Source of the DNA: Pseudoxanthomonas japonensis
GTDB taxonomy: Bacteria; Pseudomonadota; Gammaproteobacteria; Xanthomonadales; Xanthomonadaceae
Direction: 5' to 3'
NCBI RefSeq assembly: GCF_010093445.1
Contig: NZ_PDWW01000023.1
Coordinates: 1-64,000 of the forward strand
Length of the DNA: 64,000 bases
Made by a program: the position numbers and the translations under genes
The notes under the pieces: generated by a model
The model's database searches: none
The model's input: the letters and a program-made list of their open reading frames with translations, nothing else
Told to the model about the DNA's origin: nothing
Shown here: positions 7,509 through 13,675 of the stretch, one piece after another
How positions within the stretch are numbered: the stretch's first letter is position 1
Layout of the letters: the number at the start of each line of letters is the position of its first letter

Positions 7509-7651
7509 GGCGGTATCCAAACCTGAGTGGCGCGAACGCGCCGTGAAGCCCTGTTCTCCCTGGAACGCCTGTGTCGGGAGCGACCGGCCAGCCCTGCCGA
7601 TGGACGGCGCGCAGCGTCGTTGCCTATAGTGGAGGCATCGGGGAGGGGCCT

Positions 7652-10399
7652 ATGGAGCTGCAGGGACGCGGGGACGCCGTTGCACACGGCCGGAACGTCG
7701 CATGGACGAGGAGCAGGCATCGCGGATTCAAGGGCCTGCTGCTGGCGATGCTGTTGCCGGTGCTGTCCCAAGCGTCACCTTCCACGCCGCCCACCCTGAT
7801 TACCCTCGCGGGAGGCGGTAGCCAGCTGGGCGATGGCGTGCCGGCGACGCAGGCCGCGCTCGGCCAGCCCGTCGACGTCGCCATCGATGGCCACGGCAAC
7901 ACCTACATCGCCGATCGCGGGCACGCGCGCGTGCGGAAAATTTCCGTCGACGGGACCATGACCACGGTCGCAGGCAATGGTTCGACGGCCTACAGCGGAG
8001 ACGGCGGCGCCGCCACGGCGGCGGGCATGCAGCCCGTTGCGGTCGCCGTCGATGCGTCCGGCACCCTCTACATTGCCGACCACGCGGGTTCGCGCATACG
8101 CAAGGTCACCCAGAACGGCATCATCTCCACGATCGCGGGCACCGGTACGCGTGGATACAGCGGCGACGGTGGGCCAGGCGTCGCCGCGTCGCTGTACGAT
8201 CCGGCGGACGTCGAGGTCGATGCGGCGGGCAACGTCTACATCGCAGACTTCGGCAACCATCGTATCCGCAGGCTCGCGCCGGGTGGCACGATCACCACCA
8301 TCGCCGGCACGGGATCGGACAGCTTTGGTGGCATGGGCCTGCCTGCCACGCAGGCCGATGTGGGCTATCCGCAGGGCCTTGCCGTCTCGCCGCAGGGCGA
8401 GGTTTACGTCGTGAACGGCTTCGTCGTCAGCCGGATCGATAGCAGCGGGATCATGGTGATGGTTGCGGGTCAAGGGAGTATCAGTGGGGATCCGGCGGCC
8501 AACAGCAGCATGAGCGACGTCCGTGACGTCGCGGTCGATGGGCGCGGCAACGTCTATGTCTCGACCAGCCATACCATCCAGATGGTGACCCCGGAAGGCG
8601 GCATGCACCACGTGGCGGGCACGCAGGACACGCGTGATGGCCAGCGGAACACCGCCTATGGTTTCGGCGGCGACGGTGGGCCGGCCACCGGGGCATGGCT
8701 TTCCGGTCCGTCGGGCATCGCACTGGATGCCGCTGGCAACCTGCTGATCGCGGACCGCTATAACGCCCGCGTCCGTCGGCTCAGTCCGGTCCCGCATCCC
8801 GAGCCGCCTCCGGGGATCGGCGCCTTCCATGGCCAGGTCAACCGCTACAACAACTTCTACAAGGACATGGTGACCGGCGACTTCAATGGAGACGGTCGCG
8901 ACGATGTCGCTTTTTCGACTGCCAAGGACGCAACGACGGAGTACAGCACCAGTATCCCGAGCCGGGTAGGCATCATGCTGCAGACGGCGCAGGGCACCTT
9001 GTCGCCGCCCGTCTACGTCGACTTCCCGGCCGTCGTCCGACCTTCCTCGGTCATGGATTTCCACGGAGGCGGCCTGGCGGTCGCCGACATGGATGGCGAC
9101 CGCATCGTCGACATCCTGGTGGCGCAAGGGGATGGCATTGGACTGATCGCGGGATCGCGGTCCGGACAGTTCTGGCGGACGTCGTTCAGCGGTGCCCATG
9201 GCGTGCCCGCCGATCGGCTGCTGGTCATGGATGTCAATCGCGATGGGCGCAAGGATGTCGTCGCACGCAGCCTTGAGGCCCCCGGCAGCGCGCAGGTGGG
9301 AGTGAGCATCTACGTCGGCGGTGGTGCGCAGGCCGTCCGGAGGGATTTCATCGCGCTGCCACACCTCCCGTTCGGCAGCATGGCGGCAGGCGACTTCAAC
9401 GGAGATGGATTGCCTGATCTCGTGCTCGCCTACACCTTCACGTTCACGAATACGAACACGGACGATGGCGGCGCCGCGCTGCTCCTTCAGGACGGCCGGT
9501 CCGGTTTCGAGCCCCCTGCGCTCTATCCCGCGCCTGGCACTGGAAAAGCCAATCTGGCGATCGGAGATCTGGATGGCGATGGCATGCTCGACATCGTCAT
9601 CACGCGTAATCGCACGAGGACGAATGCGGACATCCTGGTCCTATACCAGCGCTTCGCCGGGCAGTTCCAGAGAATCCCGCTGGCGACGGCGCCGGAACCC
9701 GACAACCTGGTCATCGCCGACATCGACCGCGATGGGCGGCAGGACCTGATCGTCCTCCACGTCAACAATTCGTCGGTCGGCTACTTCCAGCAGCATCCTT
9801 CGCGGGGCCTGACCACCGAGGCGCGATACTCGGGTGGTGGCATGTACAACCATGCGTTCAATCCCGTCGCGGTCGGTGACGTCAACAGCGATGGTCACCT
9901 GGACCTGGTCCTGCGCGAGGGCAACAGTGGCGTCTACGTGCGACTCGGCACCGGACGCAAGATCGGACTGCGCGTGAATGGAGGTCAACCTTTGATGCCT
10001 TCCGGTGCTGGCGGCAGCATGCCGCTCGTGCCGTCGGTGGCGAATGTCGCAGCGCCGACCCGCGTGCCGCTGTTAACCGCCGACAATGCATCGACGGCCA
10101 TTGATACCCGCGAGACGGGCGTCGTGTCGCGTGGCGCGAGCTGGGTGCGGGCCTGGCAGCCACAGGTCGCGATCCGGCGCATCCAGCAGGTCGTCCAGCC
10201 ATGGACGGCGAGGGCGGCCGTCATCGCCCGCCGGTGGTTCGGCACGCCGCAGGAAGAGGCGCGCGTGTCCGCGCCCGTTCGGGCCGTCCGCGTATCGACC
10301 GCCTCCCTGCCTGTACGGGTAGTAGCGGCTGCAGCGCCGGCCACGGTCGCGTGCCCCCTGTTCGTCCGCCGTTCCATCGTCTGCGAGCGGCTGCGTTGA
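7652..10399 (+). CDS. exported NHL-repeat and FG-GAP/VCBS beta-propeller protein
   Basis: This 915-residue protein begins with a basic stretch and a hydrophobic signal (GLLLAMLLPVLSQAS). Next come about five NHL-like blades (about residues 50-365), each with a (D/N)xxGNxYIAD-(F/R)-G-N/H-xRIRK core and the loop TIAGTGTxGYSGDGGPA. A second propeller follows (about 375-775), built of FG-GAP/VCBS motifs such as GDFNGDGxxD and DxNxDGxxD that bind calcium in integrin-like folds. The last about 120 residues are Ala/Val/Arg-rich with no recognised domain. The start at 7652 has a GGGAGGGG ribosome site. It is probably an extracellular or surface binding or adhesion protein; no enzymatic motif is seen. 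Confidence 0.85.
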   Translation: MELQGRGDAVAHGRNVAWTRSRHRGFKGLLLAMLLPVLSQASPSTPPTLITLAGGGSQLGDGVPATQAALGQPVDVAIDGHGNTYIADRGHARVRKISVDGTMTTVAGNGSTAYSGDGGAATAAGMQPVAVAVDASGTLYIADHAGSRIRKVTQNGIISTIAGTGTRGYSGDGGPGVAASLYDPADVEVDAAGNVYIADFGNHRIRRLAPGGTITTIAGTGSDSFGGMGLPATQADVGYPQGLAVSPQGEVYVVNGFVVSRIDSSGIMVMVAGQGSISGDPAANSSMSDVRDVAVDGRGNVYVSTSHTIQMVTPEGGMHHVAGTQDTRDGQRNTAYGFGGDGGPATGAWLSGPSGIALDAAGNLLIADRYNARVRRLSPVPHPEPPPGIGAFHGQVNRYNNFYKDMVTGDFNGDGRDDVAFSTAKDATTEYSTSIPSRVGIMLQTAQGTLSPPVYVDFPAVVRPSSVMDFHGGGLAVADMDGDRIVDILVAQGDGIGLIAGSRSGQFWRTSFSGAHGVPADRLLVMDVNRDGRKDVVARSLEAPGSAQVGVSIYVGGGAQAVRRDFIALPHLPFGSMAAGDFNGDGLPDLVLAYTFTFTNTNTDDGGAALLLQDGRSGFEPPALYPAPGTGKANLAIGDLDGDGMLDIVITRNRTRTNADILVLYQRFAGQFQRIPLATAPEPDNLVIADIDRDGRQDLIVLHVNNSSVGYFQQHPSRGLTTEARYSGGGMYNHAFNPVAVGDVNSDGHLDLVLREGNSGVYVRLGTGRKIGLRVNGGQPLMPSGAGGSMPLVPSVANVAAPTRVPLLTADNASTAIDTRETGVVSRGASWVRAWQPQVAIRRIQQVVQPWTARAAVIARRWFGTPQEEARVSAPVRAVRVSTASLPVRVVAAAAPATVACPLFVRRSIVCERLR

Positions 10400-10424: not shown

Positions 10425-10991
10425 TCAGGCGCGGAGCGGCTCCACCCTGCATCCGTCGCCATCGCAAGCGGGCGCATGTTCCGTCGGGTCCGCTGGTAGC
10501 GGCAGTCGCGAGGTGGCTTCCGCCTCATGCACCAGCGATGCGATCTGCGCGCCCAGCACCAGATCGCCGACCTGGCCGAAGTGCTGGTGGCGGATCCGGC
10601 CCTGTGCGTCGATCAGCACCAGCGTCGGTGTGCCGCGCATCGCGTAGGCCTCCATCGTCTGCGGAATCGGGCCGCGCGTGCCGGGCCGGTCCACGCCGAC
10701 GGGGAAGCCAATGCGGTACTCGTGCAGGAACGCTTCCAGCGCGACCGGCGTCATCGCCGCGTGGTGCTCGAAGACGGTGTGCAGTCCGATGACGGCGACC
10801 TGGTCGCGCGGGAACGTGGCGTGCACGCGCGCCGCCTGGGGTAGGCCGTGCGCGACGCAGCCGGGGCAGAGCATCTGGAAAGCTTCCAGCACGACGACCT
10901 TGCCGCGCAGGGATTCGAGGGTGATGGCGTCAGGCGTGTTGAACCAGCGGTCCACCTGCAACGGTGGCGCCGGGCGATCAATGGCGTTCAT
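10425..10991 (-). CDS. thioredoxin-fold redoxin with CPGC motif
   Basis: This 188-residue protein has an AhpC/TlpA-type thioredoxin fold. After LRGKVVVLEAFQMLC comes the redox motif CPGC (Cys42, Cys45), then a cis-proline region RGTPTLVLID and a C-terminal CDGDGC pair (Cys176, Cys181). It should carry out thiol-disulfide exchange. No signal peptide is visible, so it is probably cytoplasmic unless the start is wrong. It lies last in a minus-strand series with the periplasmic protein and the cysteine-rich MarR regulator, which suggests that the regulator controls a thiol-stress response. Confidence 0.82.
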   Translation of the reverse strand: MNAIDRPAPPLQVDRWFNTPDAITLESLRGKVVVLEAFQMLCPGCVAHGLPQAARVHATFPRDQVAVIGLHTVFEHHAAMTPVALEAFLHEYRIGFPVGVDRPGTRGPIPQTMEAYAMRGTPTLVLIDAQGRIRHQHFGQVGDLVLGAQIASLVHEAEATSRLPLPADPTEHAPACDGDGCRVEPLRA

Positions 10992-11014
10992 CGGGATGTC
11001 TCGTGGGTTCGCGA

Positions 11015-11033
11015 CCGGCCTGGTGCAGGCCGG
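11015..11033 (-). terminator. intercistronic hairpin
   Basis: CCGGCCTG and CAGGCCGG pair perfectly around a 3-nt loop in the 57-bp space between the periplasmic protein gene and the redoxin gene. There is no T-run, so it may lower read-through or stabilise the upstream mRNA rather than terminate fully. Confidence 0.45.
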
Positions 11034-11048
11034 CGCGAGGGAGAGGGA

Positions 11049-11807
11049 TTACTTGTTCGGCTTGCCCGGCAGACTGAGGTTGCCGGAGGCGACCTTGAGC
11101 ACGTCCGCCACGCACAGCAGCGGGGCATGCACGCTGGCGTTGACGCGCAGGCCGGCGGTGACGCCGTCGAAGCTGCCGGCGGTGACCACGCCGATGTCGT
11201 CGAACGGCACCTTCACTTCCACCGTCTCCGCATTGAGCGTCGGGCTCCAGCCGGGGCTGTCGAGCAGGATGGGGAAGCCCGGCCAGGTCTTCGGCAGGCG
11301 CGGCTTGCTGCCTTCCGGAATGTCTACCACGCCCAGCGCGCCCGGACCGCAGGCCTCGTTCGGCTGCAGCACGACCCAGTGGCTGTGCCAGAGGTCGCCA
11401 TCGTTGTCGAGCTTGCCGTCGCCGTTCTCGTCGTACAGCGGCGTGTCGTCGAAGTCGGGATGCGCGGTGACCGCCATCGCGAGGATGCCGGCGCCCTTCT
11501 CGAAGCCGACCTCGTACGGGTCGATGGTGGTCGGCCACACGTAGGAGAACACATCGCTGCCGGCCAGCTTGCCGGTCGCCGCCGGCGTGGTCTTGCCGGC
11601 CTTGCCGGAGACGGCCATGTGGAAGGTGGCGATGTTCTTCTCGGTGGTGATCTTGGTGTGCACGATGTCGAAATCGGCCGTCACGGCTTTGTTGGCGGCT
11701 GACGCGATGCCGCCGGTGTGGGCCTTGCCGTCGTGGGCGTGCGCGCCGCCGATGGCCAGCGCGAGTGCGGCGGCCAACGCGAAACGTCGGGTGGTGTTCT
11801 GGCGCAT
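11049..11807 (-). CDS. periplasmic protein of unknown function
   Basis: This 252-residue protein has a clear signal peptide (RRFALAAALALAIGGAHA, cleaved about residue 24) followed by a His-containing segment HDGKAHTGG. The mature part includes DENGDGKLD, which looks like an EF-hand-type calcium loop, followed by LWHSHWV. Two cysteines (in NEACGPG and LLCVAD) could form a disulfide. I do not recognise the family. The ribosome site (AGAGGAG) is strong. Its position between a cysteine-rich MarR regulator and a CPGC redoxin suggests it belongs to the same envelope or redox response; a metal- or ligand-binding role is a guess. Confidence 0.8.
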   Translation of the reverse strand: MRQNTTRRFALAAALALAIGGAHAHDGKAHTGGIASAANKAVTADFDIVHTKITTEKNIATFHMAVSGKAGKTTPAATGKLAGSDVFSYVWPTTIDPYEVGFEKGAGILAMAVTAHPDFDDTPLYDENGDGKLDNDGDLWHSHWVVLQPNEACGPGALGVVDIPEGSKPRLPKTWPGFPILLDSPGWSPTLNAETVEVKVPFDDIGVVTAGSFDGVTAGLRVNASVHAPLLCVADVLKVASGNLSLPGKPNK

Positions 11808-11853
11808 AATTGAACTCCTCTTGCTTGCTCTCTCAGGGTGGGTGGGAGGTACC

Positions 11854-11893
11854 GGGCGGCGTCCGATTGCAGTCGGGCGCCGCCCATCTTTTT
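11854..11893 (+). terminator. hairpin with T-run, plus-strand orientation
   Basis: GGGCGGCG pairs with CGCCGCCC, with an inner CCGA/TCGG extension, and is followed by ATCTTTTT. This is a textbook intrinsic terminator read on the plus strand, yet both flanking genes are on the minus strand. On the minus strand it would form a leader hairpin before the periplasmic protein gene, without a T-run. Confidence 0.55.
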
Positions 11894-11897
11894 CCGC

Positions 11898-12542
11898 CTA
11901 GGGCGGAGTCGGTTGCCGGAAGCACAGGACGCTTGCCTCGCGTTGATCGTCATCGGCGGGCTGCTGCTCCGCGCAGTCCACGCGCAGTTCCGCATCGCCG
12001 AACGCCTTGTCCAGAAACGCGCAGACATGCGGCGCGTCGCGTCGGCCCGAGGCGAACGGACGGAAGAACCCGCAGCCCAGGCAGGTGCGCAGGCCGGTGG
12101 CCAGGCCCTGTTCCTGCGCCTCGTTGACCAGCAGCTGGGTCACGCGCAGCAGCGCGCCGAGATCGGCTTCGCCCAGCGACTCCACCAGCGAGCCCATGCC
12201 CTGGTCGGGGCGCTGCAGCTGCGTGGCCATGCGCGAGCCGGCGGACGTCAGGCGTACGCGCGCGGCGCGCGCATCGTCGGGGTCGGGCGTGCGACGGATC
12301 CACCGTTTGCCTTCCAGCGCCTTCAGCGAATCGCTGAGACTCGCCGCCGAGACCCCCAGGCGCTCGGCGATCTGGCGTGCACGCAGGCCGTCCTGCACGC
12401 CTTGCAGCATGCGCAGCACGGCGGCTTGGGTCGGTGGCAGCGACGGTGTGCCGTCCTGGCGCCAGGACTGCGCACGGACCAGCGAGGACAATTGCTCGAG
12501 TCCGCGCGTGGCCTGCCTGCGTTGGAAGGGGGTATCGATCAT
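11898..12542 (-). CDS. MarR-type regulator with C-terminal cysteine cluster
   Basis: This 214-residue regulator has a winged helix-turn-helix (about residues 35-110: PPTQAAVLRML, LRARQIAERLGVSAASLSDSLKALEGKRWI, and the wing DPDDARAARVRLT). It also has a tail not found in plain MarR proteins, containing C154-x2-C157, His172-x-C174 and C190. The spacing suggests a zinc, iron-sulfur or thiol sensor. No Shine-Dalgarno sequence precedes the ATG, and the predicted promoter places transcription start at or next to it, so the mRNA may be leaderless. It probably represses itself and the downstream periplasmic protein and redoxin genes through the dyad at 12551-12567. Confidence 0.85.
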   Translation of the reverse strand: MIDTPFQRRQATRGLEQLSSLVRAQSWRQDGTPSLPPTQAAVLRMLQGVQDGLRARQIAERLGVSAASLSDSLKALEGKRWIRRTPDPDDARAARVRLTSAGSRMATQLQRPDQGMGSLVESLGEADLGALLRVTQLLVNEAQEQGLATGLRTCLGCGFFRPFASGRRDAPHVCAFLDKAFGDAELRVDCAEQQPADDDQREASVLCFRQPTPP

Positions 12543-12549
12543 GGCGTAT

Positions 12550-12578
12550 AAGTTAGGACTCCTAACTATATAAGTCAA
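12550..12578 (-). promoter_or_regulatory. marR promoter with embedded operator
   Basis: Read on the minus strand, TTGACT (12578-12573) and TAACTT (12555-12550) are separated by 17 bp, a plausible sigma-70 promoter. Inside it sits the dyad AGTTAGGA-C-TCCTAACT (12551-12567), 8 bp per arm with a single central base, the size and placement expected for a MarR dimer blocking RNA polymerase. The elements are seen directly; autoregulation is inferred. Confidence 0.65.
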
Positions 12579-12615: not shown

Positions 12616-13149
12616 TCACCACCGCATCATCGGCAGCGGCGAGAAGGGATGCCGATACAGGCGTTGCAGGGTGAACTGCAGCAGGCGGCGATGGAATCCC
12701 GCATCGGGAAACCTCACCCTGACCTCGTGCACCACGTCGCGGCTCAGGCCGAAGCGCAACGCGCCGTTGCTGACGTCGATCCAGTCGGCACGCCGAAACG
12801 TCTCCACGCTCGCATGCGTGTCCGTTGGCATGCGCCGGATCCGGTGGTGATGGTCGATCATCGCGTCCACGTCCTCCTGCCACTCCGGCCTGCCGATCGC
12901 CTGCAGGTGGTTCCGGGCGAGCAGGCGCGACGGCGGGAGATAGTCGAAAGTGCGTGCCGTCCAGATGCCGAGGTCGTGGAACGCCACGGCGATGCAGAGC
13001 TTCTCCAGCGCCTCCGCATCGCCGGGCGCCAGCAGCCAGTAGAAATTCGCGACCCGGTATGCGTGATGGCGGTAGCCGGCCGCATCGCCGCCGAGGTGCG
13101 GGGCGTGCGCATGGAGCAGGGCATCCAGCGTGGGCAGCGACGTCAGCAT
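12616..13149 (-). CDS. HD-domain protein
   Basis: This 177-residue protein carries the metal-binding residues of the HD phosphohydrolase fold: HHAYRV (His28/His29), AFHDLGIW (His58-Asp59) and a later DHHHRIRR. Such enzymes hydrolyse phosphate esters or nucleotides in the cytoplasm; the substrate here is unknown. It starts 19 bp after the membrane protein gene ends, so it is probably the last gene of that operon. No partner domain such as RelA or GGDEF is fused. Confidence 0.78.
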   Translation of the reverse strand: MLTSLPTLDALLHAHAPHLGGDAAGYRHHAYRVANFYWLLAPGDAEALEKLCIAVAFHDLGIWTARTFDYLPPSRLLARNHLQAIGRPEWQEDVDAMIDHHHRIRRMPTDTHASVETFRRADWIDVSNGALRFGLSRDVVHEVRVRFPDAGFHRRLLQFTLQRLYRHPFSPLPMMRW

Positions 13150-13168
13150 GGCCGCTGCACGCCAGCGC

Positions 13169-13675
13169 TCAGGTCGCAGGATGGGCCAGCTGCACCCGCC
13201 CGCGGCGCAGTGCGCGCACCTGCAGGACCATGCCCACGAGGAACACGAGGAACGTCGCGCCCACCAGCTTCTGCAGCAGCGGATCCTGCGGACCCGACAC
13301 CAGCGGTGCGCCGATCGGCACGCGCGTCAGCGTTTCGGTGAAGCCGGGGATGAAGTGGAAGTACACGGTCAGCGTGAAGGCCAGCGATGCCGCGACATGC
13401 CGCCACGAACCGAGCACGGCGTTGCGGCCCAGCAGCACCGCGATGGCGAGCACGAGCAGGGTCAGCACGGTCAGGCCATGCGCTTCGCTCAGCTTGCCGG
13501 TCCGCATCAGGAAGAAACTGGTCAGGCAGGTGGCGACGGTGAACCAGGTGTAGGTCTTGCCCAGCGCGGTCGCATAGCGGATGTCGTGGAAGCGCAGCAG
13601 CGCGTACAGGCCGCCGAACAGCGACACGAGGCTGATGGCGGTGTGGAACCAGCCGAACGGCGTGATGTTGAGCAT
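13169..13675 (-). CDS. integral membrane protein, about four spans
   Basis: This 168-residue protein is mostly hydrophobic, with probable membrane spans near residues 8-27, 40-57, 68-88, 95-110 and 138-155, and a basic C-terminal tail (LRRGRVQ). I do not recognise a named family. It begins 9 bp after the stop of the SMP-30-like gene and ends 19 bp before the HD-domain gene, which indicates cotranscription. Function unknown. Confidence 0.75.
   Translation of the reverse strand: MLNITPFGWFHTAISLVSLFGGLYALLRFHDIRYATALGKTYTWFTVATCLTSFFLMRTGKLSEAHGLTVLTLLVLAIAVLLGRNAVLGSWRHVAASLAFTLTVYFHFIPGFTETLTRVPIGAPLVSGPQDPLLQKLVGATFLVFLVGMVLQVRALRRGRVQLAHPAT

Follow-up and report, generated by a model that had tools for sequence, protein, structure and literature searches.

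ArnR of Corynebacterium is a winged helix-turn-helix (HTH) regulator of the MarR/ArsR type whose C-terminal cysteine site binds a [4Fe-4S] cluster and whose binding to DNA is abolished by nitric oxide (PMC12343034). The cysteines concerned are Cys179, Cys193 and Cys223, spaced as C-x13-C-x29-C, and ArnR is described as regulating narKGHJI and hmp (PMC12343034). Here we describe a regulator of comparable build, REG, from the first 64,000 nucleotides of contig NZ_PDWW01000023.1 of Pseudoxanthomonas japonensis (this whole stretch is referred to as the window), where its gene is followed by the genes of an exported protein, EXP, and of a redoxin, RDX. Both proteins combine a winged HTH with cysteines placed beyond the dimerisation helix, on its C-terminal side, and with a conserved histidine close by; ArnR acts on narKGHJI and hmp, whereas REG is tied to a local redoxin operon. 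By analogy, REG plausibly works like ArnR.

Thiol switches of the OhrR/MarR type share with REG the MarR fold, a palindromic operator and autorepression, the last two being predicted for REG. OhrR binds a palindromic operator, represses its own expression and carries its redox cysteines in the MarR core, whereas those of REG lie in an added tail, and REG scored 21.6 bits with the OhrR model NF052638 (cut-off 200). The zinc regulators AdcR and ZitR have the MarR fold in common with REG and possibly also a dependence on metal. They are not known to contain a four-cysteine C-terminal module, and the score of REG with the AdcR model NF038251 was 23.8 bits (cut-off 175).

In the open-access literature searched, nothing was found that joins MarR with MOSC proteins and a redoxin, NnrS with a redoxin, or upregulation of a MOSC protein with MarR, and neither the operator sequences given below nor a cysteine or zinc extension of MarR was found there. 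Matches for HTHP with MarR were unrelated by title, and the word MarR in a review of cytochrome P460 was an author's name. The four-cysteine regulators form a real, conserved and wide family within the MarR regulators, which is apparently undescribed in this literature.

The four-cysteine tail and the predicted operator of REG

As had been stated in a preliminary description of this DNA, the genes of the exported protein and the redoxin lie downstream of that of the regulator; the three are collinear open reading frames (ORFs) on the minus strand. Their order is kept in six named Pseudoxanthomonas loci (L032-L037), in which the whole block from a LysR gene to RDX is conserved. The features on which the analysis is built are the following:

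11898..12542, minus strand: REG, MarR-family regulator of 214 amino acids, recognised by Pfam MarR_2, fold matches and conservation of its tail
11952..12086, minus strand: four-cysteine tail module, REG residues 153-197, with the pattern C-x2-C-x(11-22)-C-x15-C
12551..12567, no strand assigned: 17-bp palindrome AGTTAGGA-N-TCCTAACT, predicted REG operator, unique in the genome and conserved before REG
12573..12578, minus strand: TTGACT, candidate -35 element
11049..11807, minus strand: EXP, exported protein of 252 amino acids, of no recognised family and linked to REG
10425..10991, minus strand: RDX, redoxin without evident signal peptide (Pfam AhpC-TSA), with CPGC and a C-terminal C-x4-C

REG matched PF12802 (MarR_2) with 52.8 bits (cut-off 27) and PF01047 with 44.5 bits (cut-off 24.6), which identifies it as a winged-HTH protein of the MarR type. 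A fold search with its AlphaFold model (mean predicted local distance difference test score, pLDDT, 74.8; predicted template modelling score 0.50) returned numerous MarR chains (best Z 14.3, root-mean-square deviation 7.7, 133 aligned), in agreement with the overall fold and the helical dimerisation region of MarR proteins. These matches lay mainly over residues 2-146, the MarR core, while the tail was modelled mostly as coil, with 10-residue pLDDT means of 60-79 over residues 151-200.

In the REG of the window, the tail reads C-x2-C-x16-C-x15-C (C154, C157, C174 and C190). These four residues and H172 were unchanged across 13 orthologues. Across 21 diverse relatives the four cysteines were again unchanged and H172 varied. 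C207, an extra cysteine of the window's REG, was not conserved. Thus the cysteines of the tail motifs that had been proposed from the sequence (C-x2-C, H-x-C and a further cysteine, taken here as C190) are conserved, but the histidine is not invariant. The general pattern C-x2-C-x(11-22)-C-x15-C fitted 84 of 85 regulators reaching the tail (L163 is a regulator without the last cysteine), and the last two cysteines were spaced by exactly 15 residues in 84/84, with 12 to 17 allowed. Since the 85 regulators had been picked for reaching the tail, the invariance of the cysteines is partly selected, which does not apply to the exact x15 spacing. Scanned alone, the tails gave isolated weak Pfam matches, some of them to zinc ribbons, and no convincing Pfam or PDB relative. 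Four strictly kept cysteines at a fixed C-x15-C spacing speak for a metal or iron-sulphur (Fe-S) centre and not for a switch that works by thiols alone. Judged from these patterns, the four cysteines most likely hold a metal centre, for which an Fe-S cluster seems somewhat more likely than zinc.

The dyad upstream of REG lies 8 nt from the ATG at 12542, the start codon that is backed by homologues, and reads AGTTAGGA-C-TCCTAACT; it had been called near-perfect and is in fact a perfect palindrome (8+1+8). Ahead of REG it was retained with 0-3 mismatches to the 17-mer in 17/17 related loci read, nine of which come from one genus, so that the loci are not independent. A search for further copies, as proposed in the preliminary description, gave no second match when up to 3 mismatches were allowed, neither in the 4.08-Mb genome nor in the window, where 0.01 matches were expected. 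The exact 12-base core of the dyad occurred in 10/198 genomes of the window's family, nine times at the REG promoter and once, in G111, elsewhere. Conservation supports the dyad well as the predicted binding site, and hence operator, of REG. A single local site at the promoter of its own gene is characteristic of an autorepressor, and we accordingly read REG as a local autorepressor; gene order and conservation suggest that EXP and RDX would be controlled from the same dyad. The dyad had also been placed between a -35 and a -10 element. A TTGA block was indeed kept 5' of it in 18/18 loci, but no site passed a simple sigma-70 scan of the promoter, which leaves the -35/-10 assignment weak.

Distribution, operator types and partner genes

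A long REG match was found in 12/198 genomes of the window's family. The A4 profile (21 rows) detected related regulators in 23/303 genomes of the window's class, Gammaproteobacteria, and in 49/318 genomes of a second class (that of G391), part of the weaker matches ending ahead of the tail. We assigned the second class to Alphaproteobacteria, since in the tree described below its members fall together with named plasmids of Alphaproteobacteria. Regions were taken from 20/24 profile rows of the window's class and from 40/57 rows of the second class, the omitted rows including second copies and weaker matches that end before the tail. Plasmid records held further relatives of REG, one of them from Deinococcus. 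They comprised 32 records with REG matches and 87 with EXP matches; nine were examined and six used, leaving out L084 (no annotation), L087 (a near repeat of L085) and L080 (a short MarR protein with a different tail).

A maximum-likelihood tree on the sequence ahead of the tail split the regulators into clades I and II with support 100/99. Clade I tails are mostly of the form PHxC...LRxDC and clade II tails of the form FGxCxxC...ICxxH; L184, labelled clade II, was placed in clade I by the tree. A histidine two residues before the third cysteine was present in 35/35 tails labelled clade I and in 14/49 matched clade II tails. The clades also differ in their predicted operators. Whereas the type-I site is the palindrome of the window, the palindromes ahead of clade II genes gave a type-II site, AGTATCGA-N-TCGATACT. 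When 83 loci were scanned over 200 bp at up to 4 mismatches (L153 and L194 were too short), the type-I site was found in 19/35 loci labelled clade I and in 0/48 labelled clade II, and the type-II site in 0/35 and 38/48, respectively. With L184 relabelled, the type-I site is present in 19/36 clade I loci and the type-II site in 38/47 clade II loci. The own-type match was reached by at most 2 of 100 shuffles in 23/35 clade I and 39/48 clade II loci. The type-II core (up to 1 mismatch) was present in 19 of 30 chosen clade II genomes and the reversed control pattern in two.

The exported protein had been described as unrecognised, and EXP indeed had no match in Pfam or NCBIfam and none in the PDB by profile even at E 10. 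Its model (13 rows, mean pLDDT 55.7) gave immunoglobulin domains as the best fold matches (Z 4.8), which is uninformative. In alignment A2 (18 sequences) H116, H141, H143, H227, C153 and C232 are invariant, and many members have a His-containing mature N-terminus. The EF-hand-like loop (DENGDG) that had been pointed out in EXP is missing in L067 and is thus not defining. In its genomic place EXP is like cytochrome P460 (PF16694), the exported partner of related regulators; cytochrome P460 is a haem protein family, whereas PF16694 and the haem-binding CxxCH are both absent from EXP, which is therefore not counted as a cytochrome P460. EXP and P460 never occurred together in one of the 85 loci. 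From the genomes outside the window's family in which REG was matched, 64 were chosen. These contained 16 EXP matches in 15 genomes, and 16/16 lay no more than about 1.2 kb from a REG match (the REG matches beside EXP in G639, C11, and G293, C1, count here irrespective of their tail, and the EXP match of G1023 is a fragment).

RDX, apparently cytosolic, is a thioredoxin-fold redoxin by its match to PF00578 (AhpC-TSA; 36.7 bits, cut-off 26); its score with NCBIfam ResA was 38.8 bits (cut-off 170), and an N-terminal signal was not evident. The two cysteine pairs noted previously were kept to different degrees, CPGC or a variant of the type C[PA]xC in 21/23 homologues and the C-terminal C-x4-C in 16/23. 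The closest solved structure is 3eyt (SPOA0173; E 3.5e-65). We take SPOA0173 to be the redoxin gene of a cluster on the Ruegeria pomeroyi megaplasmid, in which a redoxin stands with a four-cysteine MarR regulator, EXP, an HTHP haem protein and two MOSC proteins; the regulator of this cluster belongs to clade II, with the other operator type, whereas the REG of the window belongs to clade I.

Partner genes were counted within 3 kb of the regulator with L184 as clade I (36 clade I and 49 clade II loci), and the families were verified by Pfam or NCBIfam on representatives. At the 36 clade I loci, the partners were RDX (20), EXP (14), GRX, a small CPVC protein (12), a glutamine amidotransferase (11), a MOSC protein (6), an OYE-type oxidoreductase (3, and in one more locus at about 3.0 kb), DUF2024 (3) and P460 (2); three loci were without any partner family sought. 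For clade II (49 loci), the partners were an RpoH-type sigma gene (21), P460 (11), EXP (8) and MOSC (3). The MOSC partner resembles 6-hydroxyaminopurine reductase below the model cut-off (173 vs 294) and is presumably YiiM-like.

Of 20 P460 genes in 19 genomes of the window's class that carry REG, 12 lay within about 1 kb of REG, and gene neighbourhood suggests that the four-cysteine MarR proteins are regulators for the cytochrome P460 family. P460 genes adjoin four-cysteine MarR genes in 13 loci (L160, L182, L183, L186, L188, L190-L193 and L195-L198). The regulator is divergent from an RpoH-type gene in 21 clade II loci (L155, L158, L159, L161, L162, L164-L178 and L180), and a type-II site (up to 4 mismatches) was found in 18 of these 21. 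It is possible that the four-cysteine MarR proteins control rpoH in clade II loci, which would be a previously unknown control. DUF2024, a Pfam family of which the function is not known, recurs beside GRX, EXP, P460 or the regulator (L073, L183, L184, L192, L195, L200 and L234).

The wider surroundings vary between lineages. On a Defluviimonas plasmid, genes for MarR, EXP and TlpA adjoin NnrS, a nitronate monooxygenase, a hemerythrin, a group III truncated haemoglobin and an Rrf2 regulator, and L144 has matches to a truncated haemoglobin and Rrf2. In Deinococcus, MarR, EXP and the gene of a peroxidase-related enzyme come after an Rrf2 gene. Downstream of EXP in Ruegeria stand the genes of the HTHP haem protein, a redoxin, a MOSC protein and a VanB-type reductase, and in Phaeobacter nirK lies about 6 kb from the locus. 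In L081 (Phaeobacter inhibens) and L082 (Ruegeria pomeroyi), both on plasmids, EXP is divergent from a clade II MarR-MOSC pair, and the intergenic region of Phaeobacter holds two palindromes, GTATCGAGTCGATAC and GTAGCGAGTCGCTAC.

Of the type-II sites in the 30 chosen clade II genomes, 11 by our reading lie away from REG. They were treated as chance, since each of the seven examined (L236-L240, L242 and L244) falls within a long ORF lacking any partner family. In G1018, an exact type-II core lies ahead of GRX-DUF2024-P460 at a contig end, and REG lies at the end of another contig. This site was not counted as regulation at a distance, as the two contig ends may be neighbours.

Proposed mechanism and rival explanations

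P460, the YiiM-like MOSC protein, the OYE-type oxidoreductase and, in a few loci, NnrS, nirK or a truncated haemoglobin suggest that these loci respond to reactive nitrogen or electrophile stress more than to copper. The first view of the locus as an uncharacterised, autoregulated thiol- or metal-sensing operon was the right kind of answer, with tail and dyad conserved, but a metal or Fe-S centre is favoured over a plain thiol, and copper is less favoured. The reading that we tentatively prefer is that REG is an autorepressor whose Cys4 centre in the tail is destroyed by reactive species, most plausibly reactive nitrogen, whereupon the operon is induced. A REG dimer of the MarR type would bind the 17-bp palindrome, which by its conservation is expected to cover the start of the transcription unit of REG, and would keep the expression of REG-EXP-RDX low. 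Behind the dimerisation helices the four-cysteine tail would hold the metal centre, with Fe-S somewhat likelier than zinc. Judging from the partner genes, this centre would be destroyed by a reactive species, for which nitric oxide, hydroxylamine or a related nitrogen oxidant is the most plausible candidate; REG would leave the DNA and the operon would be induced. EXP might then handle the species or its damage in the periplasm, in the place that P460 has in related operons, and RDX might restore cytosolic thiols. The more far-reaching proposal is a widespread, undescribed MarR family with an Fe-S or other-metal Cys4 sensor for reactive nitrogen, two clades with two operator codes, and interchangeable exported defence proteins, namely P460 in some lineages and EXP in others, the present one included, EXP being in this view a novel periplasmic protein without haem that does an equivalent job. 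In this full form it appears doubtful. Confidence in both proposals was lowered because few loci have clear nitric-oxide genes nearby, and the zinc and metal-ion readings discussed below gained slightly.

Several findings weigh against destruction of a metal centre by reactive nitrogen. Within 3 kb of the regulator, NnrS, a group III haemoglobin and Rrf2 were each found in 1/85 loci, and nirK was matched near one; the operon of the window is without P460, NnrS or nirK, and the link to nitrogen is one of guilt by association. Electrophile or oxidant stress would explain the OYE-type, amidotransferase and redoxin partners just as well, and the divergent neighbour in 21/49 clade II loci is an RpoH-type gene. 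In the window's family, only 5/10 genomes bearing EXP have a REG match beside it. The AlphaFold model of the tail yields no metal geometry. ArnR has three cysteines at other spacings and REG has four (C-x2-C-x16-C-x15-C); since number and spacing differ, REG is not classed as an ArnR, the likeness drawn here being one of general build. As for the operators, the own-type site at 4 mismatches was missing in 16/35 clade I and 10/48 clade II loci, and in 1/35 and 2/48 a site of the other type came through the shuffle test. The type-II consensus was derived from the same loci in which it was then counted, so that the counts describe rather than independently test it; stronger evidence comes from the absence of crossing between the clades and from the shuffles. 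Once one mismatch was permitted, the 12-base type-I core occurred no more often than the control (present in nine of 11 chosen clade I genomes, the control in all 11), and the specificity of this core thus rests on exact matches; G016 has a second type-I site at 1 mismatch (C26).

The partner genes of clade I can also be read as a set that repairs thiols and reduces electrophiles. In a zinc-thiolate switch, the four cysteines would hold Zn2+, and hypochlorite, electrophiles or disulfide stress would oxidise them, expel the zinc and free the operator, with OYE, the amidotransferase, the thioredoxin-like protein and the redoxin acting downstream. Cys4 sites often hold zinc, and the counts of RDX (20/36), GRX (12/36), amidotransferase (11/36) and OYE (3/36, the fourth at about 3.0 kb) as well as the RpoH-type sigma gene divergent from 21/49 clade II regulators are consistent with such a switch. 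However, it predicts neither the linkage to P460 nor the few surroundings of the nitric-oxide type, and the tails show no paired zinc-knuckle pattern and only the isolated weak zinc-ribbon matches, so we regard it as unlikely, if deserving of serious attention. That the cysteines form disulfides on oxidation without a metal, as in OhrR-type regulators, would agree with four conserved cysteines and with redoxin partners; yet four cysteines invariant in 21 relatives and an exact 15-residue spacing exceed the need of a two-cysteine switch, and together with the low score of the NCBIfam OhrR model this makes a plain thiol switch improbable.

Reversible binding of a zinc or copper ion by the tail, with an operon that handles the metal or its thiol damage, would account for the metal-like ligands, the four invariant histidines of EXP and the His-containing mature N-terminus of many of its members. 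No metal transporter or metallochaperone was identified among the recurrent neighbours, of which part of the clusters was annotated, and the score with the zinc-dependent AdcR model was far below its cut-off; we consider a metal-ion sensor very unlikely. It would be at least as surprising if the tail were a structural zinc element only and REG used the pocket typical of MarR proteins to sense a small organic ligand. The MarR core of REG is ordinary, which fits such a reading, but the partners are redox and detoxification genes that vary between lineages and share only the tail and the operator with REG.

Hairpin, neighbouring genes and implications

One further feature lies inside the REG-EXP-RDX unit:

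11854..11885, minus strand: RNA hairpin in the REG-EXP interval; its apex, CGACTGNNATCG, is kept and some pairs show two-sided changes

The CGACTGNNATCG apex was present in 17/18 loci, whichever gene follows REG, and in its exact form occurs once in the genome. In 12 aligned loci, 4/12 predicted pairs were changed on both sides, and other pairs were broken in some rows. The folding energy was unremarkable (z -1.89), the covariation term was near zero and the hairpin had no Rfam match. As a standard operon terminator it was rejected, since the T-run is on the opposite strand. The hairpin may tune EXP and RDX against REG.

Upstream of REG on the same strand, 12616-13675 holds a weakly HD-domain-like gene and a gene for a small membrane protein, which were retained only in L032-L038 among the loci compared. 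It is possible that transcription from these genes reads through into REG. On the other side, 7571-10399 encodes a repeat protein of 942 amino acids (NHL-like, then FG-GAP-like repeats, by eye) that ends beside RDX on the opposite strand.

If the proposed mechanism is true, the MarR family would gain a new sensor module, and one short DNA site together with a four-cysteine tail would predict this sensor in at least two phyla. Cytochrome P460, YiiM-like MOSC proteins and some rpoH genes would be tied to a common regulator, and a first handle on EXP would be obtained. The operator code makes the regulon directly testable.

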